Of a DNA stretch of 46,435 nucleotides, positions 9,509 through 46,435 are shown in pieces. Numbering within the stretch: position 1 is the first letter of the stretch; every line of letters begins with the position of its first letter. The notes beneath the pieces were generated by a model. That model was not told where the DNA came from. It worked only from the letters and a program-made list of their open reading frames with translations, and searched no databases. A program made the translations under genes and the position numbers. This DNA comes from a virus: the IMG/VR virus record IMGVR_UViG_3300037485_000843, positions 1-46,435 of that record, one strand, 5' to 3'.

Positions 9509-9560
9509 TTAATACACGCATGGCTAGAATAATGCTGATGAGTCCGTAGAATGAGAGACG

Positions 9561-9725
9561 ATGATGGCTTATCACGAATCAGATGGCATGGTGCAGGAGT
9601 GGACCTCCAGGTGCTTACTATGCCGTTACTGTGGCTTCGACTATGATAATATTAAAAATCAAGAACCCTATTGTCCAGCCTGCGGAAGTGAGGAGTTTGA
9701 TATTCTTGAAGAATACTATGGATGA
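9561..9725 (+). CDS. Small zinc-ribbon protein (53-54 aa)
   Basis: Tandem ATGs at 9561 and 9564. The product has CLLCRYCGFDY and CPACGSEEFDILEEYYG, a four-cysteine zinc ribbon with an acidic C terminus. Its last 18 residues have a near-copy just after the neighbouring HNH gene (10292-10369), so the region once held two related genes or one gene that was partly duplicated. Function unknown. Confidence 0.65.
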   Translation: MMAYHESDGMVQEWTSRCLLCRYCGFDYDNIKNQEPYCPACGSEEFDILEEYYG

Positions 9726-18333: not shown

Positions 18334-19128
18334 TTATCCTTGCCATAATCCCTCCGTACAATCTTTAGCTGTATTCTTTTCCTCTTGCTTGGGCTGTCGC
18401 TTCTTTTCTTCCCGGTCCCAATTAAGAATGGTCATATAATGTGACACATACCTCTTCCCATGGCTCCCCATATAAAGGAACAATCCCTCACACTTACTCC
18501 GGGTTTCCTCTGCCCCATACCTAAGAATTAGTTTGTCGTATTCTTCCTTTGAAAGAAGTATCCCAGGGAGGTCGGAGAAGAATTCTTTCTTTACTTGTTT
18601 CTTTCTAAGGGGTAACTTTGCTTTCTCTTTCTTTATAAGGGGGTATGGGGGAAAACTTTCTTTCTCTTTCATTTCTAGGGGAAGTCCATCAATTACTATT
18701 TCTTTTATATAAGTTCCTTCTTTCTTTACTTCTTTAGTATTCTTAATACTTCTTGTTTGTGGTTGATTTGATGGTGATTTGCTGGTTGATTTGTTGGTTG
18801 ATTCCTCCTGATAATCCTGCCATTTTACGATTGAAATGACACTAAATTTGTTGGTTGATTTGATGGTGATTTGCTGGTTGATTTGCAGGTTGTTTAGCTG
18901 GTTCCTTATCTCCTGTTCTGACAACCCGGTTTCTTCTACCGCCTTAAATCTTCCAGTAACAAACTGTCCCGGCAAGAGATGGACTACTTGCTTTCCTACA
19001 GGCTGGTCAATTTCACACCACGTAGCTTTTAATAAGCACCATGTCCATACACGCCATTGCTTTTGATTCTTCCAACAATCAGATGCGAGACATCTACGCC
19101 ATAGTTTAATATATCCATCAGGTATCAT
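18334..19128 (-). CDS. Replication initiator-like protein (DnaD/phage replisome organiser type)
   Basis: A 264-aa protein. The start is set at ATG 19128 by GGAGG and the stop of the HNH-like gene 1 nt away; an earlier open frame would overlap that gene fully. The N terminus, MIPDGYIKLWRRCLASDCW, then WTWCLLKATW, GQFVTGRFKAVEETGLSEQEIRN and the VVKW-like ISIVKWQDY, follows the winged-helix domain of phage replisome organisers that load the helicase at the origin. The C-terminal domain (YDKLILRYGAEETRSKCEGL) is DnaD-like. Two perfect 34-bp repeats lie inside the coding region. Confidence 0.72.
   Translation of the reverse strand: MIPDGYIKLWRRCLASDCWKNQKQWRVWTWCLLKATWCEIDQPVGKQVVHLLPGQFVTGRFKAVEETGLSEQEIRNQLNNLQINQQITIKSTNKFSVISIVKWQDYQEESTNKSTSKSPSNQPQTRSIKNTKEVKKEGTYIKEIVIDGLPLEMKEKESFPPYPLIKKEKAKLPLRKKQVKKEFFSDLPGILLSKEEYDKLILRYGAEETRSKCEGLFLYMGSHGKRYVSHYMTILNWDREEKKRQPKQEEKNTAKDCTEGLWQG
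18760..18793. repeat. 34-bp repeat, copy A (iteron-like, inside initiator gene)
   Basis: A perfect copy of the 34 bases at 18852-18885, made of GGTTGATTTG-type units spaced by 11-12 bp, with a further related unit at 18796-18805. It is read in a different frame from copy B (92-bp offset), giving NKSTSKSPSNQP instead of QINQQITIKST. The conservation is therefore in DNA, not protein. Confidence 0.8.
18852..18885. repeat. 34-bp repeat, copy B (iteron-like, inside initiator gene)
   Basis: Identical to 18760-18793, with a further degenerate unit (GGTTGTTTAG) at 18888-18897. Iterons inside the initiator gene are known from lambdoid and other phages, so this is a candidate replication origin. Confidence 0.8.
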
Positions 19129-19129
19129 G

Positions 19130-19447
19130 TCACCCTCCCTTGTGGTTGGGTTCATACTTAGAATGTGCTGGCATACCAAGGAGTCTATCAAACTCGCGCC
19201 GGGTAATGCGTTCATCGAATAGGTCATGCCCATACTGACATAGTTGCAGTATGTTAGCTGCTGTATTTCTACTCTTTGAGCCACCCATTCCGCGGTGCTT
19301 GATGTGGGCCATAACCAACCGGAAGCGCCCACGACAAGGGCAGGGGCCGAGCGTATCGGCCCCGCCCTTTACTCGTTGGTATAATCCTTCACATCTATCC
19401 CCTGCTCTTGCCCTAACTTCCTGGCAAACTGCATAAGGGATAGGCAT
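19130..19447 (-). CDS. HNH-like nuclease, NinG/Ref-like layout
   Basis: A 105-aa protein. After a Cys-rich start (RCEGLYQRV...CPCRGRF) comes VMAHIKHRGMGGSKSRNTAANILQLC, then GHDLFDERI. The His-x-x-His...Gly-Gly...Asn...His pattern is that of HNH enzymes of the NinG/Ref type acting on recombination intermediates or ssDNA. The place between the SSB-like gene and the initiator supports a recombination or replication role. ATG 19447 overlaps the stop of the SSB-like gene by one base. Confidence 0.65.
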   Translation of the reverse strand: MPIPYAVCQEVRARAGDRCEGLYQRVKGGADTLGPCPCRGRFRLVMAHIKHRGMGGSKSRNTAANILQLCQYGHDLFDERITRREFDRLLGMPAHSKYEPNHKGG

Positions 19448-26466: not shown

Positions 26467-26641
26467 TAGTTTTTGACTATTGATTGTAAAAGTCATTCGT
26501 AAACAAAGCTATGAAAGTATAGGTTAGAACGATGCTAGGATAAGCAAGGTTAAGGGATAAGGATATGGGACATAGCAAAGCATAGGTTAGGATAGCAAAC
26601 AATAATGTAGATACGGAGTAAGCTCCCGGCCCCCAAACTAT

Positions 26642-26733
26642 TAACGCGTCACGTTACTAATAACGCTTGGCGTTACTATGTCATAACGCTAGGCGTTAAT
26701 AACGTAAGGCGATACTAATAACGCTAGACGTTA
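26642..26733. promoter_or_regulatory. Array of five operator-like 15-bp palindromes
   Basis: Five sites: TAACGCGTCACGTTA (26642), TAACGCTTGGCGTTA (26661), TAACGCTAGGCGTTA (26684), TAACGTAAGGCGATA (26700) and TAACGCTAGACGTTA (26719). The consensus is TAACGCTNGGCGTTA. Start-to-start spacings are 19, 23, 16 and 19 bp. Arrays like this bind dimeric repressors, initiators or partition proteins. It lies between the divergent promoters, about 180 bp upstream of the leftward one. Confidence 0.8.
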
Positions 26734-27055: not shown

Positions 27056-27206
27056 GTAACAAAAGAAAGTATATATATATATTACTTAGAATAGTTAGTT
27101 AGTACGCTAGTTAGTTAAGCTAGGGGGAGTACCCTTAGTTTCTTAATAACCTCTTATTTCCTGGACAAGAAAATTTTTAAAATAAGAATGCTCATTTAAT
27201 GGAGCG

Positions 27207-27495: not shown

Positions 27496-27524
27496 TTATT
27501 ACCACAAATAAAAAGTTTTGTCAA
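27496..27524 (-). promoter_or_regulatory. Leftward promoter candidate
   Basis: Minus strand: TTGACA, 17-nt spacer, TAATAA. It starts TTGACAAAAC like several family members but its spacer lacks the TGA. It would transcribe the gene-free control region toward the stem-loops. Confidence 0.45.
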
Positions 27525-27619: not shown

Positions 27620-27648
27620 TTGACAAAACTTAAAGTATCTGATATACT
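27620..27648 (+). promoter_or_regulatory. Main rightward promoter
   Basis: TTGACA (27620-27625), 17-nt spacer ending in TGA, TATACT (27643-27648). Start expected near 27655, exactly where the structured leader begins. It belongs to the same six-member family as the leftward promoters. Confidence 0.85.
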
Positions 27649-27654
27649 ATATGG

Positions 27655-27833
27655 CGTGGATTAGGGGTCTTGGCTCTGACAGTCCACAAGGGTTGGTGCT
27701 TCCAACCCGGCGAGATGACTGGGGAACGCTGTGATGGTTGGTCTTTACGGGGTTCCCCCACGTGAAGATTAAAGGGGGGCGAGAGGCTAAGGTGTGAGCC
27801 TAGTCGTACGCGTCTAGGTGTGACCTAGCCTCT
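27655..27833 (+). ncRNA. Structured leader RNA, novel candidate
   Basis: Begins at the predicted start of the rightward promoter. A closing stem CGTGG/CCACG (27655-27659, 27758-27762) encloses two arms. The first is CAGTC/GACTG (27680-27684, 27717-27721), holding the hairpin GGGTTGG/CCAACCC with a 5-nt loop (27690-27708). The second is GGGAAC/GTTCCC (27722-27727, 27752-27757). A second domain pairs AGAGGCTA/TAGCCTCT (27782-27789, 27826-27833) with inner stems GGT/ACC and CCTAG/CTAGG. GGTTGG recurs in the loop of the second arm (27736-27741) and could compete for CCAACC. No known RNA class recognised. Confidence 0.62.
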
Positions 27834-27856
27834 TTAAACCCTTAATACAGGAGACT

Positions 27857-28345
27857 ATGAAAGAGATATTACTAAATCAAAATAAAGTAGCATTAGTAGA
27901 TGATTCTGACTATGACTGTCTTAACCAATATAAATGGCATGCTCATCAAAATCATGGCAGAGGGTGGTATGCAGAACGGCTTATTAAGCAAGATGGTAAA
28001 TGGAAAGAAGTCTTTATGCACCGCGTAATTCTTAATACACCCAAAGGTATGGAATCAGACCATATCAATGGCGATGGGTTAGATAACCGTAGGTGTAATT
28101 TAAGGATTTGCACAACTTCACAAAATCAACAAAACCAACAGACACAATCTCGTATTAAATCCTCTGGTTTCAAGGGAGTTAATTGGGCAAAGCGTGCAAA
28201 TAAGTGGGTGGCTAGGATAGTTATTGCTAAAAAAGAAATGTGGCTTGGTTCGTTTGATAGTGAGCTTAAGGCTGCATTAGCCTATGACAATGCAGCTAAG
28301 AAATACTTTGGAGAGTTTTCCAAAACAAACTTTATAGAGATTTAG
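27857..28345 (+). CDS. HNH-AP2 homing-type endonuclease, copy 1
   Basis: A 162-aa protein. The N-terminal module (KEILLNQNKVALVDDSDYDC ... YKWHAH) precedes the HNH core FMHRVILNTPKGMESDHING, then DNRRCNLRICTTSQNQQN (residues about 54-95). It ends in an AP2 DNA-binding domain (GFKGVNWAKRANKWVARIVI, then WLGSFDSELKAALAYDNAAK, about 105-155). This is the standard layout of free-standing phage homing endonucleases. It is first in the rightward block, directly after the structured leader, and has a close paralogue at 28717. Confidence 0.9.
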   Translation: MKEILLNQNKVALVDDSDYDCLNQYKWHAHQNHGRGWYAERLIKQDGKWKEVFMHRVILNTPKGMESDHINGDGLDNRRCNLRICTTSQNQQNQQTQSRIKSSGFKGVNWAKRANKWVARIVIAKKEMWLGSFDSELKAALAYDNAAKKYFGEFSKTNFIEI

Positions 28346-28349
28346 GGAA

Positions 28350-28393
28350 AGGCCGGGGAAGATGTTATCAAGTGGTTAGTCCACCTCCGGCCT
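28350..28393 (+). terminator. Nested stem-loop between HNH copy 1 and the next gene
   Basis: AGGCCGG (28350-28356) pairs with CCGGCCT (28387-28393), and inside it GTGG (28372-28375) pairs with CCAC (28381-28384). There is no U-run. It could end the HNH transcript partly or be a small structured RNA element. Confidence 0.5.
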
Positions 28394-28417
28394 CCAACCC
28401 TATTTCAAAGGAGGGTT

Positions 28418-28663
28418 ATGAGTCATAAGCATAGTCACGATTGCGCGGTATGTAAGCACGAATGTCTCCACCACTGTACCTGTTGCGACAAGGTGTACTG
28501 CTGTAAGTGCGGTAAGGAATGGGGCAATACATACTGGCCCACTTGGACTTCTACGCATACCGCATCACCAGATTACGTATATTGTGGTACTTCTAGCGGT
28601 ACGATAAATTGCGGTAACACTTGTGGTTCTACGGATACAGTAACCTGCACACATTGTCATTAA
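28418..28663 (+). CDS. His/Cys-rich zinc protein (81 aa)
   Basis: Unusually rich in Cys and His: HKHSHDCAVCKHECLHHC, then CCDKVYCCKCGKEWGNTYW, ending VTCTHCH. Several overlapping zinc knuckles are possible. The stretch VYCxKCGKEWG is familiar from short uncharacterised phage proteins. ATG 28418 follows AAAGGAGGGTT. It lies between the two HNH genes. Function unknown. Confidence 0.62.
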   Translation: MSHKHSHDCAVCKHECLHHCTCCDKVYCCKCGKEWGNTYWPTWTSTHTASPDYVYCGTSSGTINCGNTCGSTDTVTCTHCH

Positions 28664-28672
28664 AGGAAAACT

Positions 28673-28720
28673 ATGATTGAGATACTAAGGCAAGGTGATG
28701 AAGTAAGGTCAGAAGAATGA
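28673..28720 (+). pseudogene. 15-codon relic of a phage zinc-ribbon gene
   Basis: ATG 28673, with AAAGGAAAACT upstream, encodes MIEILRQGDEVRSEE and stops at the ATGA where HNH copy 2 begins. The peptide resembles the start of a common phage zinc-ribbon protein (MIEIL-x-G pattern, recalled), so it may be what the HNH insertion left. It could also act as a leader peptide coupled to the HNH gene. Confidence 0.45.
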
Positions 28721-29208
28721 AAGTGATACCTTTAACTCAAGGTAAAGTTGCTATTGTGGATGACGCAGATTTTGACATTCTTACGCAATGGAAGTGGTGT
28801 GCCCATAAAAGGGGTAATAATTCATGGGTAGCTTGCCGCAATGTATCTGATGGATGTAATAAAAGAAAGACTATTCTAATGCATCGCTTAATACTAAACA
28901 CACCTAAAGGCATGGAAACAGACCACAAGAATGGTAATGAACTTGATAACCGTAGGGATAATTTGAGAATTTGTACTACAGCCCAGAACCAGCAAAACAG
29001 ACATCTATTGCAGGATGGGAAATCGTCTCTATTCAAAGGCGTTTCTTATAGGAAGTTAAGTAAAAATTGGGGTGCATGGATTAGGGTAAATGGACACTTA
29101 CTAAACTTAGGCCATTTCATAGATGAGGTTAAAGCTGCACTTGCGTATGATGGTGCTGCTAAAAAATATTTTGGTGAATTCGCACATCCTAATTTTATTG
29201 AGGTTTAA
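28717..29208 (+). CDS. HNH-AP2 homing-type endonuclease, copy 2
   Basis: A 163-aa paralogue of the protein at 27857: KVIPLTQGKVAIVDDADFDI, then LMHRLILNTPKGMETDHKNG, DNRRDNLRICTTAQNQQNR and an AP2 end (LFKGVSYRKLSKNWGAWIRV ... ALAYDGAAKKYFGEFAHPNF). The active-site His and Asn positions are kept. The start overlaps the stop of the 15-codon ORF. Two paralogues in tandem suggest duplication or two independent entries of related elements. Confidence 0.9.
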   Translation: MKVIPLTQGKVAIVDDADFDILTQWKWCAHKRGNNSWVACRNVSDGCNKRKTILMHRLILNTPKGMETDHKNGNELDNRRDNLRICTTAQNQQNRHLLQDGKSSLFKGVSYRKLSKNWGAWIRVNGHLLNLGHFIDEVKAALAYDGAAKKYFGEFAHPNFIEV

Positions 29209-29230: not shown

Positions 29231-29449
29231 GTGAAGACCCGTTACCAAATCCTAAAGAGGGTGTCTATCCTTCTGAACATACTAGGTTCGTTATTGTTCG
29301 GGGGAGGGATATACTCGGCCTCAACAGGTGCAGGGTACTTCCTGTTCTTGTTTCTAGGAATGGGGCTTCTGTATTGGGTTAGCTATGAACTGGACTTCTA
29401 CGTCCAGGAGCTATTGGTAAACATATACAGCAAGGAGAAGCATGGATAG
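29231..29449 (+). CDS. Two-helix membrane protein (72 aa)
   Basis: GTG start at 29231 behind GAGGTTCAAT. Helices ILLNILGSLLFGGGIY and YFLFLFLGMGLLYWVSYEL are followed by a short soluble tail. Not recognised. An overlapping frame from ATG 29209 (57 aa) is possible but less protein-like. Its end overlaps the next gene by 8 nt. Confidence 0.58.
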   Translation: MKTRYQILKRVSILLNILGSLLFGGGIYSASTGAGYFLFLFLGMGLLYWVSYELDFYVQELLVNIYSKEKHG

Positions 29450-29570: not shown

Positions 29571-29806
29571 TCCGGATTAAATGGCTGGACCACCTGGGAT
29601 GCAATGAGCAATTAACCAAGTTCCAGGTTGATGCGCTTCAGTATGCAATCTATTCAACATGTGGATACCTTGTTTCTGAAGACGAATTAACACTAAAGAT
29701 TTGCAACCATATTGTTCAAGAGAACGATAACGTCTTCTATGAAGGAATCACAGTTGTAATAAAAGCGTGTATCATAGAACGTCAAGAGATGGAGGAGCTA
29801 CTTTGA
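29564..29806 (+). CDS. ORF without a canonical start, upstream of small terminase (80 aa)
   Basis: The frame is open from 29552 to the TGA at 29804-29806 and encodes a protein-like sequence (IKWLDHLGCNEQLTKFQVDA ... EGITVVIKACIIERQEMEEL). There is no ATG, GTG or TTG near its start; the only plausible sites are ATT codons at 29564 (9 nt after AAGAGG) and 29576. The stop overlaps the TTG start of the next gene (TTGA). It may use a rare start or frameshifting from the previous gene. Confidence 0.5.
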   Translation: MLIRIKWLDHLGCNEQLTKFQVDALQYAIYSTCGYLVSEDELTLKICNHIVQENDNVFYEGITVVIKACIIERQEMEELL

Positions 29807-30162
29807 AAACACCATACACACTATCTTCAAAGATGGGTCGTACACTTCTAAAGAACAACACCCAAAAGTTAGTAACTCACCTTCTTCAGAATGAGAAGTG
29901 GCTTAACGACCAGATAGCAATAGCACAGGAAGCAGGAGAAGCTGACCGAGCCGCAGACTTGATTAACCAACACCGTCTGTTTGTTGCAGACCTTCTTCCG
30001 TACTGTCTTCCTAAGTTGTCAGCTACTATGAACAATGACAACGATGAGGCTCAGAAACTAATAGCCGAGTTGATGTCAGTAGGGAAAACAGAGGAGCCTA
30101 GCGATATCGCTATCAATAGCAATTCAACTGGTAACACATTGACACCGGATGGTGATAAGTAG
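29803..30162 (+). CDS. terS-like: Putative small terminase subunit
   Basis: A 119-aa protein from TTG 29803, placed by GGAGGAG 5 nt upstream and the TTGA overlap. It is mostly helical: SSKMGRTLLKNNTQKLVTHL, then EKWLNDQIAIAQEAGEADRA, with a polar C-terminal tail. No DNA-binding motif is certain. The call rests on size, helical character and position one short gene before the large terminase. The TAG stop is followed in frame by 31 open codons encoding a membrane helix. Confidence 0.5.
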   Translation: MKTPYTLSSKMGRTLLKNNTQKLVTHLLQNEKWLNDQIAIAQEAGEADRAADLINQHRLFVADLLPYCLPKLSATMNNDNDEAQKLIAELMSVGKTEEPSDIAINSNSTGNTLTPDGDK

Positions 30163-30301: not shown

Positions 30302-31597
30302 GTGAATTATGTTCCCAATCCCCAACAACGTGAGGTGCTTGATTGCACCTCTTGGCTTAGAATGATGGTAGGAGGAGAAGGCTCCGGCAAGTCTCTATTG
30401 GGCGCAATGGAGATGCTTGGAAGATGTTTTGAAGGGACTCTGTTTTGGCTGGTAGGCGCTGACTATGACAATACCAAACCTGAATTTGATTACATAGTTG
30501 AGGGGGCAAACAAGTTAGGGATACTTGAGTTCGCTTCCACAGTTGTCAACCCAGGCAAGATAGTTCTTAAAGGTGGAATAACAATATCAACAATAAGTGC
30601 GAAGGACCCAAGAAATATCTCGAAGTTCTCCCCCCATGGAATACTGGTATGCGAAGCCGCACAATGCGACTTCCAGGTTATCCAAAGACTTATCGCTCGC
30701 TTAGGCCGCGCCGGAGAAGGCGGGTGGATGCTAATGACCGGAACATTCGAGGGTTCGCTGGGCTGGTACCCTGAAGTGTATTTAAGCTGGCTAGGCCCAA
30801 ACAAGGAAGATGGGAAAAGTTTTGCTCTTGCTTCATGGACAAACACAAGCCTTTACCCTGGTGGGCGAGAGGACCATCTGCTTAAAAAGATAGAGGCTAC
30901 CATGTCTCCGGACCTGTTCAATGAGCGCATGGGTGGTATACCATGCCCTCCGTCCGGGAGAGTGTTCCATGAGTTCAGGAACTCGTTGCATGTACTAGAT
31001 AAACCATTCGACCCTGAGAAGGAAGTAGAGATATGTGTGGACCCAGGCTACTCCGCGGGATGGCATGCGGTAGAGGCCGGGCAATGGGATGGGGATTACT
31101 TCCATGTATTCGATGAAGCGTATGAACAGTTCAAGACTTCTGAGCAGATGATTTCTATTTGTAGGATGAAGCCATGGTGGAAGAAGGTAACAGGAGGGGC
31201 CATTGATATTGCTGGTACAGCCCACAAACCCGATGTCCCTGCTTCTGAGATTTGGAAAAAATCCGCCGGGGTACATCTTAGGTCTAAGAAAGTTCCAATC
31301 GCCGCGGGCATCGAGCGAATGCGTACCTACCTTATCCCTGACCCAATCACACATAGACCGCACCTTACAATCAACCCAAGATGTCAAGGACTCATCTCTG
31401 AATTCGGAGGATGCCCCCATCCTGTGTCTAAAAGAACAGAGGTCTACCAGTATGACACAGACCGCAATGGTGTCGTCATAGGGGTCAAGGATTCAAATAA
31501 TCATGGCATAAAGGCCGTGACCTATGAGATAGTATGCAAGTTCGGATACTCAAGGCCACAGGGTCAAAATCAGCAGTTGGTTAGGAGATTTGGATAG
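30302..31597 (+). CDS. terL: Terminase large subunit
   Basis: The packaging motor ATPase-nuclease, 431 aa from GTG 30302. Walker A is GGEGSGKS (24-31), Walker B ILVCEA (113-118), and the coupling segment WMLMTGTFEG follows at about 142. The nuclease domain has Asp247 in ICVDPGYSAGWHAV and Asp302 in GAIDIAG as likely metal ligands. The codons just before GTG 30302 also read like terminase sequence (LTKEQKQLIWDK), so translation may start earlier from a non-standard codon. The stop abuts the portal ATG. Confidence 0.93.
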   Translation: MNYVPNPQQREVLDCTSWLRMMVGGEGSGKSLLGAMEMLGRCFEGTLFWLVGADYDNTKPEFDYIVEGANKLGILEFASTVVNPGKIVLKGGITISTISAKDPRNISKFSPHGILVCEAAQCDFQVIQRLIARLGRAGEGGWMLMTGTFEGSLGWYPEVYLSWLGPNKEDGKSFALASWTNTSLYPGGREDHLLKKIEATMSPDLFNERMGGIPCPPSGRVFHEFRNSLHVLDKPFDPEKEVEICVDPGYSAGWHAVEAGQWDGDYFHVFDEAYEQFKTSEQMISICRMKPWWKKVTGGAIDIAGTAHKPDVPASEIWKKSAGVHLRSKKVPIAAGIERMRTYLIPDPITHRPHLTINPRCQGLISEFGGCPHPVSKRTEVYQYDTDRNGVVIGVKDSNNHGIKAVTYEIVCKFGYSRPQGQNQQLVRRFG

Positions 31598-33229
31598 ATG
31601 GAAGCAAAAGAGATTATCAGCCAGGTAGCCAAGGTTAAAGAGTCTACAGTAAGGACTGCGCTCAAGGCCAGGTGGGATAGCGACCTGAATATATATCTTC
31701 GTGATGCCCATAAGATGAAGGGGTCTAACGGCAATGCGTTGCCGGGTGTTTACAATGTTACATCGGCAGACCCGCAGACATACATGGACCGCATCACCGG
31801 ACTCATGGCAAGGGCCGAGCCTAGGCTACATGTTGTTTCCGCACTATCAGATGACCAGGTACGCATGGTTGAGAATTGGTGGAAGTGTGTCCTGTACTCT
31901 GCTAATAATCTCTATGCTGGCAATGCTAATACTACAATGTTCCCTTCGTTGGCCTTCTATACAAACCTCCGTGGGTATCCGATAACACGCGATGTTATCT
32001 ACCGTGATGCTGACAACAAGACTGTGTTCGAGATTAAGCCTATTGATGTCTATGACACGTACTGGAAGAAGTACGGGAACAGATTGGCATGGGCCTGCGT
32101 TGTTTCTTCAATGGAGCCGGAGGATATAGAGGCGTTCTTTAATATCACAGTCAAAGAGAAGACAGATGTTTATAACTACTGGAACAAGGACGGCGTTGAG
32201 TACACAATAGTTGGCGAGACTATGATACCCAATACAAGGGCCTATATCAACTATGTGCCATTCTCAATATGCCCTGTGGTAACTACACCACAGGTAAATG
32301 GAACTAACACTAAGAAAGACTCTATGGTTGGTGAGTCCCTGTACCATAGTGTACGTGATGCAATCAAAGAGCGCAACGATATACTCTCAATCATAAAGAC
32401 CCATGCCATGCTTGGTATGCGTCCTCCATTAACACACGTTACTGATGGAACAGTAGGCCGAGAGATTAAAGAATACCCGGCAGAGTGGGGAACTGTCATA
32501 GAGCAGTTGGCGGAGGAGAAGTTCGACTCACTGAAGTTCTCTGATATGGCTAACACCAACGCCATGTTCTTCAATATGGTGGATGGAGAATACCAGCGTG
32601 GCACAGTTCCCAACAACGAGTACGGCGGGCTGAACTTTCAGCTTTCTTCATTGGCTCTTGATACATTGTCCAGCCAGCGTGGAGTAGTCTTCCTCCCAAG
32701 ACAGACCACACTTGAGAATATGTACAAGTCTATCTTCAACCATATGTTCCAACAGTTCATTGATGGCAAGTTCGACACAGAGATGATAGACGATAGTGGT
32801 GCTGTAATCAAGGTTGGATATGCTGACCTGGCTCCTTTGCAGGATAAGTTCCGGGTGGACTTCGATGTAGATGTAGAGTCTCCGGAGGAGGAGACTTCTA
32901 ACTACCAGAAGGCTGTGATGGCTCTCAATGCACGTATGCCTCTGGATTTCATAGTAAGGAATGTCTTTAAGGCTGAGGACCCTGACAGACTCCTGGCGAT
33001 AATCGCTGATGAGAACCTGATGAGAGAGTTGCCTGAGATGAGGTTGGTTCGGGCTTATGACCAGGCAATGAAGGATTCCGCCAATCTAAAGGGCGACCCA
33101 AAGGCTGCAAAGTTAATGGAGGCTAAGTTGCTTGAGGGTAGGATAGCTCAGATTATCCGGTCAATGCAGCCACAACAGCCGCCCGCGCCGCCCGCGCAGG
33201 GTGCAGCGCCAGCCCAGGGGGTGATGTAA
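31598..33229 (+). CDS. Portal protein
   Basis: A 543-aa protein forming the ring through which DNA enters and leaves the head. N-terminal region: VRTALKARWDSDLNIYLRDA, then YMDRITGLMARAEPRLHVVS. The long central alpha/beta part (EIKPIDVYDTYWKKYGNRLA) and the helical DAIKERNDILSIIKTHAMLG with QLSSLALDTLSSQRGVVFLP fit portal architecture. The C terminus is Pro/Ala/Gln-rich (PPAPPAQGAAPAQ). It follows the large terminase without a gap, the canonical order. Confidence 0.82.
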   Translation: MEAKEIISQVAKVKESTVRTALKARWDSDLNIYLRDAHKMKGSNGNALPGVYNVTSADPQTYMDRITGLMARAEPRLHVVSALSDDQVRMVENWWKCVLYSANNLYAGNANTTMFPSLAFYTNLRGYPITRDVIYRDADNKTVFEIKPIDVYDTYWKKYGNRLAWACVVSSMEPEDIEAFFNITVKEKTDVYNYWNKDGVEYTIVGETMIPNTRAYINYVPFSICPVVTTPQVNGTNTKKDSMVGESLYHSVRDAIKERNDILSIIKTHAMLGMRPPLTHVTDGTVGREIKEYPAEWGTVIEQLAEEKFDSLKFSDMANTNAMFFNMVDGEYQRGTVPNNEYGGLNFQLSSLALDTLSSQRGVVFLPRQTTLENMYKSIFNHMFQQFIDGKFDTEMIDDSGAVIKVGYADLAPLQDKFRVDFDVDVESPEEETSNYQKAVMALNARMPLDFIVRNVFKAEDPDRLLAIIADENLMRELPEMRLVRAYDQAMKDSANLKGDPKAAKLMEAKLLEGRIAQIIRSMQPQQPPAPPAQGAAPAQGVM

Positions 33230-43700: not shown

Positions 43701-45646
43701 TCAAGACTGGTGGAACACGTGGTATAACAGGTAAGATGATGGCTGAATCTATAGTGGGGATGTATGCTTCATTTACTGCTGCCTATATCGCTCTATGCTA
43801 TGCTTTAGGGCAGTCTCCTAAGTTAGACCCACGCCCTAAATCTATGGGAGGCGATGGCTCAGAGTTCCTTTCCTTGGAAATAGATGGTCAATTCATTGGA
43901 GTACCTAACCCATGGTTCCAGGGAGCAAGGGCAGCTTTAAGTGCTGCTGCTATAGGTCTTGCCAATCCTGATAAGATATTCTCTATTGACTGGAATAATC
44001 TTAAAGAGTCTAGCGTTGGAACACTGTTGAGTTTTGCCACAGATAGGCAATCCTTGGCTCTCAGTTTCATAGAAGAAATGGCTACCGGAGAAGCGTATGG
44101 TGGTATAAGGCTTGAGGATAGTAATGATTACCTTAAAACAATAGGGGAAAAGTTTATCCCTACTGCGTGGAGGAACTTAACTGAAAGTGGTGATAAGCCT
44201 AGTACCTACTTAGCCTGGGGGATGCGTATACTTGGTCTTAGGAACTGGCGGCAGAACACATGGGTAGACTACGCTGAGGCTTTTAATGAGTTCTTAAGTG
44301 ATGTTCCTGATTCATATCTAGTAGGGGACCAACTTGAGAAACGTGACTCAGGTAAATTAACCATGAACGATATGATGTCGTGGCAGATTGATAAGATTCT
44401 ACTAGAGAATCCTGAGCTTAAGGCGAAGTGGGATATAGCAGATGAATCCTTCCGTAAGAGTGAGAGTGATATGGAACGCTCTTATAATACTGATAAAGAA
44501 AGGATAGATACAGAAACGACAGTTAGAAATAATAATGCTGGCGCTGACCTAAGAGACACTACAAATACAACAGGGATAACTAATACAAAAGAATACAACG
44601 ATGCCTTAAAAGAAATTTCCCAAGACCATGCTGCTCTTAGTGGCGACTTACATACAAGATATCCTGAGTTCTTTGCTGAACTAGAAAAGCAATTGTCAAA
44701 CAAGACAGGAGATGCCTATAACTTTGATTTAGCCATGAACGACTACTATGATAATGTTGTCAATGGCGCTGGCAACTATGATAAATATAATAACTTTATT
44801 ATGGAAAATTACCAACAGGCTAAGCAAGACTGGAAGGATAGGTGGGACCCCAATGGTTCCACAGGTTTCTATTCATACCTTCTTGAAGTGAAACGATATG
44901 GCCTTATGGACCAGGACCCATTACTTCTCAAGATGTGGGAAGCTAAAGAAGAACTCGGAGCTTATTGGGCAGTACCAGAAGAAGACAGGGAAGCATTCCT
45001 TGAAGACCCGGATAATGTTCTATATGATGCTGACCTTATCTTCACAGGGTATACGAGCGTTATACATAACCCTGATGCCGAAGCAATAGTAAGGCAATGG
45101 TGTGCAGAACTTGGGTTAAATGCAGACGCAGTTATACCCGCCTTGACAAAACTTATTATTCCTGATATAATGTTAGAGAAATTTGCTGATGTTGATGGTG
45201 ATAGTCTAAAACCAAATGACAAGAGAACATGGAGCAGTCTACCTATAAGCGGTTATGCGAGAGAGTGGTTCTTAGCCACGAATCCAGCTTTTAGAGCATA
45301 CGCTACTAGCACAGAAGAAATAGATGGCAAGAGGATTGGATGGCTTAACGGAACGGACTCTATGGGTAGGGATAAGTACACAATAGAGAGAGTTCCTAGC
45401 CCTAGAGAAGAAGAACAAATAGCTGAATACAATAGGATTGTTGAAGAAAATGGAGCAAACTCAAAGGCTGGTCAATACTGGAGGTGCGCAAACAGGGGAG
45501 ACAATGGAGAAGCTGCGTTAAAGAAGATAGGCATACAGCCAATCAGTCAAGAATGGTGTGAGAGAAACGCAGCAGAAACCAGTTCATTCGCACAAGCAAC
45601 ACAGTTTACTGGTGGGGGAAGTTCCCTGCCGGATTTTGAAAGATAG
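37703..45646 (+). CDS. Giant virion protein, candidate DNA-ejection protein (2647 aa)
   Basis: The largest gene, one sixth of the genome. The N-terminal third is low-complexity and beta-rich with Glu/Pro/Ala linkers (PAPAPAPSQLPIGYGG, about residue 614). The central 1000 residues are helical and charged (IRCEAAAKEMTDLLKSQ; EVLLKSEEDFLKQRTFIDAV). Around 1797 and 2016 hydrophobic helices occur (MLPLQLAMDFSFATIQ, MYASFTAAYIALCYALG). The C-terminal part is acidic and helical. Size, helices and place after the hub fit the internal/ejection proteins of short-tailed phages that line a channel into the host. No lysozyme or protease motif recognised. Confidence 0.55.
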   Translation: MAKKQPFDLAHYIRNQNMPGQFGGAAAGQWGIPDPAGTARGRLAQFRRGLVGIGVAQNPVEQWAMGSKPGQEAAGIAAGMKAYTEKKQAAAAKYSERQTKNQLSRSQAAGGVDLEERRLSSLETQNRTGWSTQRTMDFMANGVPSSTGKYLQAGRSPAEQESYMETIQDKFDIVNDALWNAAIYSGMSQFTDIGSLEGVEYDTNPESPTYGEPIIENADDQKAYDDAVSAAAANPDSTAIEKFGRMQSYYYTWNTYHDEDWSSLSELASLGVSQRTEEGKAETLAYRAFVIQDMQNKGMPGSIINMALSTTTPMPLQNMIDFGFLKVGQVLSAEWARAYGYDLPKGVVSVKIVDDLTSDGTGGWVEGKGYPVLNANNEVIPGAYQSTQSFGLEQTYGPAPEEEVTDREKIAALGLPSLFGIPAPQPEEEVETTSTHGLLPNEFSSGETFVSSGEEFRSGRDWSQPQILSANEAKYYYEIDGELPSDFTMTAQEIDGKLTTLSQTLGGWTMNYTDGAITEWISPVDAKGEVHTFTTIEEVTAYEEQIQNEAALAFTTGGEVGALNNKLDTNTKWGDPNAIIWTGGFVPGVPVMGNLSTGDQLVLVSVPRTAPAPAPAPSQLPIGYGGSSTWEKGVVPTLPQQQYLAMPNTSQLGLVIPPTTPPTWTGSSVSVPNIPFGTDISVNASPIKDLAEVVINGSMTQVLSTGLDGFSKAGDVLAQYQGPMPYDDNNLPDFVVKIGEDYHVKWNSPAGKEHLISVYPERYLAITWSMGECPESDALLKNTLGFTDQEIVDWWKTKPFGFKEIDDTSYLGGVLETLRGMLSLPVTGPADLMCLLTDPFDRDPVGQARLRTYMVGSNPLTYVGEGFGGLINTVKTLEALTDYGLSAISHTTTPQGRVFITDFRKAIKDNGLLLVFNKKIQEDLNDYLPAWQNVAAEASIFLIPFGALRYFKMPGMLKLVRTGELKLVRSIATVEDLYAASAVRGWRVMGTGIKGRFVIFVKDAYGKEVATPLRNLAEADSFFKYGTPYRLRPARMRAIEKAILAPIKLIENWTDFAKLAKEHRWEVVFKGGAFKVSAIDKAVSSAARKVFVKIDQELIEINSIQEANNLLRDRAFRQRVASLPNSGNIRITIDGKEIPLFTMPTDLELLLDTLKNQPGRLGLGLAKLIQAKLQGQGRPKLSIDDIKKIADPELQGVMAELVREGKVSIDTIFRASNIVKIRCEAAAKEMTDLLKSQCNTKFIDSRKGLPLDAKGDVPAGQVELLASIPEELTIRVGNSGLYAGHDVAEMWKYFKFKNPEIPRWFSNIDELLRGLEELGLQEGIINKSFRRYRDLEAKGIYRSYFPRVITGQDTMAEVLLKSEEDFLKQRTFIDAVQGRDLGLHYGTLGKSIDAYIDTFYSKLVNKRHRAFINRSGLTIPEIWETAEGRTIMETARATAKKAGQVKIIDSVIRHIYGPAGKEIPAGGRMAWINENFPGLADRVRKLIYYSSDAARRDILHSLENRMRVRKLILQNEIRNIKVASKAERTSIMGKLYDDTVKLRTAEERIQEIIDSLSATGILTDANASYLKWFAEWAQKEYPGAFRWYKNWTAEPGASHLVTVKSFLDDVVDLRKSIADEISWFNGMTEIQRAARLSDPLAVMGRLEEANAILTKIWRTEKPGKTIEQLRTLLDGVFPGEFTGRLDDLVAIFDKSKVRGIYESLEADVRKLLDEAEKAKVAAAIDRKAAEAPLAKGATTHRFEDEGRTAATFDRVFGEIKVNGKTISGEAVRKKIEKIYTDKANPLLSAFAQVASSMLPLQLAMDFSFATIQGAPMLGLEAVLNFRALVNGESPSFIWAEAMKYSVGQTFSGMLGKSVMRTFRNKHIDVYDRKLGKGLVINDSSDFFASVGWIGKNIEKISNKNARRPLEWAIAPYAGFQSGFSAWSEVARVLLIEKLETSWYLSGGTEAELARFANSITGSLAEPGRGAMQRASETALFIAPRYYRANLFVLNRMLPKFKTGGTRGITGKMMAESIVGMYASFTAAYIALCYALGQSPKLDPRPKSMGGDGSEFLSLEIDGQFIGVPNPWFQGARAALSAAAIGLANPDKIFSIDWNNLKESSVGTLLSFATDRQSLALSFIEEMATGEAYGGIRLEDSNDYLKTIGEKFIPTAWRNLTESGDKPSTYLAWGMRILGLRNWRQNTWVDYAEAFNEFLSDVPDSYLVGDQLEKRDSGKLTMNDMMSWQIDKILLENPELKAKWDIADESFRKSESDMERSYNTDKERIDTETTVRNNNAGADLRDTTNTTGITNTKEYNDALKEISQDHAALSGDLHTRYPEFFAELEKQLSNKTGDAYNFDLAMNDYYDNVVNGAGNYDKYNNFIMENYQQAKQDWKDRWDPNGSTGFYSYLLEVKRYGLMDQDPLLLKMWEAKEELGAYWAVPEEDREAFLEDPDNVLYDADLIFTGYTSVIHNPDAEAIVRQWCAELGLNADAVIPALTKLIIPDIMLEKFADVDGDSLKPNDKRTWSSLPISGYAREWFLATNPAFRAYATSTEEIDGKRIGWLNGTDSMGRDKYTIERVPSPREEEQIAEYNRIVEENGANSKAGQYWRCANRGDNGEAALKKIGIQPISQEWCERNAAETSSFAQATQFTGGGSSLPDFER
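45143..45171 (+). promoter_or_regulatory. Internal promoter for scaffold and capsid genes
   Basis: TTGACA (45143-45148), 17-nt spacer ending in TGA, TATAAT (45166-45171): the perfect consensus and the best member of the six-site family, although it lies inside the giant gene. The start near 45178 is about 490 nt before the scaffold gene, so it should boost scaffold, capsid and cement synthesis. Confidence 0.8.
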
Positions 45647-46287: not shown

Positions 46288-46435
46288 ATGACGACATTAA
46301 CTGGTAGTTATACTACGTTAATGGATTTGGTGAAGTTACAGCAACTTGATGGCAAGATTGCTACTGTCACTGAAATCCTGTCCCGCGCTTGTCCTATGAT
46401 GGAGGACATGCACTTCCAGGAAGGAAACCTGGAGA
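46288..46435 (+). CDS. Major capsid protein, 5' end (continues at base 1)
   Basis: This is the true start of the capsid gene: ATG at 46288 after AAGGAGAAAGAAAG, 12 nt beyond the stop of the scaffold gene. It adds MTTLTGSYTTL in front of the internal Met at position 13 of the left end. The copy is cut by the contig end, not by a biological break. Confidence 0.9.
   Translation, partial: MTTLTGSYTTLMDLVKLQQLDGKIATVTEILSRACPMMEDMHFQEGNLE
46309..46435. repeat. Terminal direct repeat, right copy
   Basis: This is the second copy of the 127-base end repeat, identical to bases 1-127. Joining the ends restores an intact major capsid gene that starts at 46288 and ends at 1014. Confidence 0.95.

Follow-up and report, generated by a model that had tools for sequence, protein, structure and literature searches.

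A putative structured mRNA leader and a second hairpin of like design in the late operon of a circular phage genome

What does a strongly folding, non-coding segment do at the head of a phage's rightward gene block? The window, the whole 46,435-nt stretch of IMG/VR record IMGVR_UViG_3300037485_000843 analysed here, begins and ends with an exact 127-bp terminal repeat (bases 1–127 equal 46309–46435) and is therefore a circular phage genome, with a unique length of 46,308 bp. A leftward block from 10678 to about 25910 encodes a DnaB helicase, a DnaD-like loader and other proteins; within the loader ORF lies a direct repeat of ~49 bp (18756–18803 and 18847–18895, 92% identical). The rightward block starts at 27857, passes through terminase, portal and major capsid protein genes and continues round the circle to about 10606, a late operon of roughly 29 kb. 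The two blocks are separated by almost 2 kb of intergenic sequence, the control region.

The promoter at 27620–27648 is the top plus-strand match of the region and places the predicted transcription start near 27655, in agreement with the strong rightward promoter proposed in the initial annotation. This promoter is kept at positions 460–488 of a second viral contig, L002 (TTGACAAAAC...TATGGC), where none of 2000 shuffles equalled the alignment score; a promoter pattern search returned L002 as its sole match. The promoter motif, TTGACAAAA(C)..TG.TA.AAT, recurs at 27524–27495, 27569–27540 and 20637 on the minus strand and at 45143 on the plus strand. Two of these copies are divergent from the leader promoter, and one lies within the ORF of 2647 aa that precedes the capsid gene.

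Directly downstream of the promoter lie 202 nt of GC-rich, non-coding sequence, the leader, with 55% GC against 38% in the surrounding intergenic region. Its predicted fold has a free energy of −84.9 kcal/mol (z −3.75), and shuffles of equal composition, a check proposed in the initial annotation, did not match it (0/200); the opposite strand reaches −64.1 kcal/mol (z −2.95). In a calibration on random 202-nt windows of the genome, 3/160 had z < −3.5, which places the leader in the top 2% but does not make it unique. The fold is real and unusual, yet not extreme. Folded alone, the region of its long 3′ hairpin, hp1 (27764–27848), gives z −5.2, and the GGGGAAC hairpin (27719–27759) gives z −4.0. 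Among about 9,270 85-nt windows on both strands hp1 ranks 13th; the most stable 85-nt fold genome-wide, both strands considered, is at 19291–19375, inside coding sequence.

The helices listed in the initial annotation are all present: CGTGG (27655–27659) with CCACG (27758–27762), CAGTC with GACTG, GGGTTGG (27690–27696) with CCAACCC (27702–27708), GGGGAAC (27721–27727) with GTTCCCC (27752–27758), and, within 27773–27842, the hp1 arms AGAGGCTA/TAGCCTCT with inner CCTAG/CTAGG. The closed junction into which they had been arranged survives as one of two folds of equal energy, at −84.7 kcal/mol versus −84.9 kcal/mol for tandem hairpins, but as the minor one. In the tandem fold, GUGGAUU (27656–27662) pairs with AGUCCAC (27681–27687), and the predicted pair probabilities are 0.71 for GUGGA/UCCAC versus 0.18 for CGUGG/CCACG. 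According to the folding model, the closed four-way junction is a minority alternative of the 5′ domain, and a more fitting description of the leader is a predicted chain of stem-loops that ends in hp1, ahead of a mostly exposed AGGAG. GGTTGG does occur twice, at 27691 and 27736; the two-state switch suggested for this repeat was rejected, the alternative GGTTGG/CCAACC pairing being 7.6 kcal/mol worse, with an ensemble probability of about zero.

A search of Rfam 15 gave no match in the window at the gathering threshold, and at E ≤ 5 just two weak matches, each lying in a coding sequence away from the leader; within Rfam 15, the statement that the RNA belongs to no known class holds. Elsewhere in the genome, a string at 9520–9580 (CTGATGAGTCCG..GACGATG) is like a hammerhead ribozyme core, lacks the GAAA and has no Rfam match; it is probably a chance occurrence.

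The strongest comparative support belongs to a hairpin that the initial annotation had missed. This second hairpin, hp2, overlaps the stop codon of HNH1, the first gene of the operon, and precedes the Shine–Dalgarno (SD) sequence of an 81-aa Cys-rich ORF (z −2.9; Table 1). No terminator-like site and no U tract, as an intrinsic terminator or attenuator would have, was found at hp1 or hp2, and an intrinsic terminator was rejected because neither hairpin is followed by a U tract. An alternative pairing between the CCCT and the Cys-rich ORF's SD was likewise rejected, at a probability of about 0.04.

Table 1. Positions in the window of the promoter, the predicted RNA elements and the neighbouring rightward genes.
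Feature	Position	Strand or direction	Remarks
Promoter	27620–27648	+	TTGACA-17-TATACT with extended −10 TG; 11/12 consensus matches
5′ domain	27655–27763	+	Hairpins 27656–27687, 27690–27708 and 27721–27758, from folding and pair probabilities
hp1	27773–27842	+	Long hairpin closed by AGGG/CCCT, upstream of the HNH1 ribosome-binding site
SD of HNH1	27849–27853	+	AGGAG; predicted mostly unpaired (unpaired probability 0.65–0.88)
HNH1	27857–28345	+	Homing-type endonuclease, HNH_3 + AP2 (Pfam), 162 aa; absent from L002
hp2	28344–28402	+	Second hairpin, design like hp1; homologous to L002 796–856
Cys-rich ORF	28418–28663	+	81 aa, after hp2; no family match
HNH2	28717–29208	+	Second HNH endonuclease gene, HNH_3 (Pfam); AP2 match below the Pfam cut-off; absent from L002
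Small terminase, likely	29767–30162	rightward	By position
Large terminase	30302–31597	rightward	
Portal gene, likely	31598–33229	rightward	By position; no family match

L002 is the sole public relative found to span the region and is 81% identical across terminase and portal. Its order is promoter, a 54-aa Cys-rich ORF, a structured stretch (684–868) and a small ORF equivalent to that at window position 29443; it has no HNH genes here, and the structured stretch precedes a different gene, the MERIQ ORF. The last hairpin of this stretch, L002 796–856 (z −2.4), is the homologue of hp2. The two align with a score of 57, where shuffles reached at most 43.5, and a covariance model built on hp2 alone (R1) finds the L002 hairpin at E 1.5e-7, a score that comes partly from plain sequence similarity. 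All 15 of 15 pairs are kept and none is broken, with two double-sided changes (C-G/U-A and U-A/A-U) and one one-sided change (A-U/G-U). These counts were taken from the model-fitted alignment (A11), because the MAFFT alignments (A6 and A7) misplace the 3′ arm, shifting it by one base. Conservation is seen in two loops, the internal AUGUU(U)AUCAA and the apical UUAG, while the stems vary. In a shuffle control of the two sequences, 133/500 shuffles did as well, which is not significant, and the covariation is therefore suggestive of a real signal rather than proof of one.

The resemblance does not extend evenly through the leader. A comparison of hp1 with the L002 hairpin was marginal: 15/2000 shuffles were as good, and the model match had E 0.088 in 4.4 kb. 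Common to both are a 5′-side GATT..A.GGG and a 3′-side AACCCT. Between the 5′ domain (27655–27763) and L002 684–783 no similarity was detected (905/2000 shuffles as good). The covariation sought in the initial annotation is thus suggested for hp2 and its L002 counterpart, by two compensatory changes with no broken pair in two sequences, but not for the 5′ domain, for which no homologue was found.

The control regions of the two phages hold other repeated or conserved sequences. In the window, 26639–26733 holds four to five palindromic ATAACGCTAGGCGTTA-type repeats in tandem, while L002 1–120 carries repeats of a different type, TAGTTGACGG; both sets are operator- or iteron-like. A non-coding block at 27096–27180, 82% identical to L002 180–262 and better conserved than the leader, is possibly an origin or regulatory site.

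Searches for further relatives came back to the same contig. The leader DNA had no match among annotated phages, and an exact search for GGGTTGGTGCTTCCAACCC had none in viral contigs. The hairpin pattern search found L002 only, as did a hairpin covariance model (R2) run on five viral records. Terminase, portal and small-terminase queries matched only L002 and a third contig, L003, which stops short of the leader; major capsid protein relatives, at 35–39% identity, were too distant, and one genome search with the terminase returned no match. In a descriptor scan the only non-coding copies were at 27773, 28344 and L002 794, and shuffles gave equally many chance matches. Homologues of the large terminase at ~41% identity occur in Chloroflexota, in 22/400 genomes at E ≤ 0.001 and mostly at E < 1e-70; they may represent a lineage of domesticated prophages or gene-transfer agents. 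Just upstream of the terminase homologue, both Chloroflexota loci read (L016 and L017) have a short ORF. Model R2 found no AGGG/CCCT hairpin at the Chloroflexota terminase loci and had no match in the 400 Chloroflexota genomes.

Could the RNA serve the HNH genes, which the initial annotation supposed it to protect or control, as a homing-endonuclease control hairpin or a guide-like RNA of the HEARO/IscB kind? Its placement invites the idea, with hp1 directly upstream of HNH1 and hp2 directly downstream, and RNA structures are known to lower the translation of free-standing homing endonucleases: the ribosome-binding-site hairpins of mobE and segB likewise adjoin an HNH endonuclease gene at its start (PMC3014915). 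In the phage leader, however, the SD of HNH1 lies outside the hairpin and is predicted to be open, no sequestering pairing of the HNH1 SD or start codon was found, and hairpins of this kind also precede non-HNH genes. L002 keeps the hairpin without an HNH gene, and no comparable leader was found upstream of the HNH relatives examined in annotated phages (52% and 43% identity) or viral contigs (33–43%); for these two reasons the HNH-linked cassette was rejected. A HEARO RNA or intron was rejected as well, HNH1 combining HNH_3 and AP2 with no RuvC domain match, no RuvC+HNH protein being adjacent and no Rfam HEARO match being found. Service to the HNH genes is accordingly hard to credit, and the leader RNA appears, on comparative grounds, to be no HNH accessory; the element is not specific to HNH genes. 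Since HNH1 and HNH2 are present here and absent in L002, the simplest history would be their insertion into a pre-existing leader or operon. A put-like antiterminator is a better contender, though still an improbable one: the nascent leader would bind RNA polymerase and allow terminator read-through across the late operon. In HK022, two related put RNAs, each about 70 nt with two stem-loops, lie downstream of early promoters in the left and right operons, putL directly after its promoter and putR about 270 nt downstream, much as the structures are placed in the window and in L002, and act in cis via the zinc-binding domain of the RNA polymerase beta′ subunit (PMC9378689). The phage leader shares with them tandem stem-loops near a promoter where a very long operon begins, and from position alone such antitermination is possible. 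The leader is longer than put RNA, though, with three to four stem-loops and no Rfam match; its promoter-nearest domain is not conserved in L002, and hp2 is located inside the operon. A related partner in the leftward operon was rejected: the leftward untranslated region shows no similarity to the leader (884/1000 shuffles as good) and folds only moderately (z −1.73).

The conserved loops of hp2 and its L002 counterpart, kept while the stems change, would be explained by an RNA operator, in which the hairpins are bound by a protein of the phage or its host that represses the next gene's translation or sets its timing. T4 gp43 and gp32 act in this way as translational repressors on their own messages, and the gene 43 and gene 32 operators resemble the present hairpins in lying upstream of the SD and in having conserved loop bases (PMC3014915). 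By contrast, the SD lies outside the hairpins described here; hp1 has different loops, the next genes are not the same in the three cases, and the binding protein would be a putative one. We regard an operator as no more probable than antitermination. A DNA-level site whose inverted repeats merely resemble RNA hairpins, such as a packaging (cos/pac) site or a replication region, is conceivable because the terminase lies downstream. The segment belongs to the control region and lies upstream of the small terminase in both phages, and hp2 and the L002 stretch fold equally well on both strands; but in the leader the transcribed strand folds better, the distance to the terminase differs (about 2 kb versus 0.4 kb), and placement right before SDs would be unexpected of a DNA site, which leaves this explanation somewhat less probable again. 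The segment might, finally, lack any RNA-level function, a GC-rich intergenic stretch folding by chance and the likeness of hp2 to L002 reflecting ordinary common ancestry. About 2% of random genome windows fold as well, the covariation comes from two sequences, and the 5′ domain and L002 684–783 share nothing. Against this stand the compensatory changes with no broken pair and none in slid registers, two hairpins of one design in a single transcript, and a GC content well above that of the surrounding region. On balance, we consider absence of function as doubtful as the operator.

The leader of this late operon is probably genuine and functional, and is probably an RNA element that protects or controls the late-operon message: the initial proposal that the rightward block opens with a structured leader RNA is supported by the promoter, by the z-score of the fold and by L002, which shares the promoter and carries a related hairpin in its own leader region. 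As to its mode of action, our leading but tentative candidate is that the leader and the intercistronic hairpins of the late-operon mRNA act in cis on stability, processing or translation. The transcript would start near 27655 and run through the terminase, portal and capsid genes around the circle. Its leader would form a chain of stable stem-loops, with the long AGGG/CCCT-closed hairpin last and an exposed ribosome-binding site after it, and hp2, of the same design as hp1, would stand between operon genes one and two. These hairpins may hinder mRNA decay from the 5′ end, mark processing sites between genes, and keep the next ribosome-binding site open. We infer transcription of the leader, its structure as a selected trait, and an effect on decay or translation.

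hp1, hp2 and the L002 hairpin each end shortly upstream of an SD, those of HNH1, the Cys-rich ORF and the L002 MERIQ ORF. Closure by AGGG/CCCT, no U tract, an SD soon after and differing next genes together indicate an element that would act on the mRNA itself, both at its 5′ end and between its genes. Like the HNH1 SD, that of MERIQ is mostly unpaired in prediction, and slid-partner registers, which show no compensatory changes, also count in favour. Other observations count against a cis role: the structured stretch of L002 does not stand at the 5′ end, the L002 hairpin in its homologous fold lies 2.4 kcal/mol above that hairpin's own predicted optimum, the model pairs part of the SD that follows hp2, and hp1, the hairpin inside the segment originally annotated, is just marginally related to hp2 and its L002 homologue. 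Going beyond structure and placement, mRNA stabilisation or processing with an open ribosome-binding site would be the most economical reading.

No known RNA family matches, yet the kind of element, a structured phage mRNA leader or intercistronic hairpin, is familiar. Phages such as T7 carry intercistronic RNase III processing hairpins, which like those described here are irregular and stand between genes, before ribosome-binding sites; we claim no sequence relation to them, and cleavage of the present hairpins would be a candidate activity. Stabilisation of a whole message by a 5′ leader is established in other bacteria, with aprE and ermC as examples of stem-loop leaders (reviewed in PMC3997798). 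In these a stable 5′ untranslated stem-loop is followed by an accessible SD (PMC3997798), and the phage leader likewise has a stable stem, from 27656, near its predicted start; it differs in having several stem-loops and a second hairpin inside the operon. A more ambitious proposal, which we think unlikely, is that the AGGG/CCCT hairpin with AUGUU(U)AUCAA and UUAG loops (hp2, L002 796–856 and perhaps a diverged hp1) represents a new phage-specific RNA family, deployed at the starts of several late-operon genes, where a dedicated factor would recognise it and coordinate the processing or translation of late mRNA. To our knowledge, structured leaders of phage late operons are little described outside well-studied model phages. 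With a defined sequence and a covariance model, other phages can be searched for the element as sequences of further relatives become available. Should the hairpin prove to be a reusable mRNA element, the lineage would be a case of a phage that uses repeated RNA modules to regulate how its mRNA decays or is translated.
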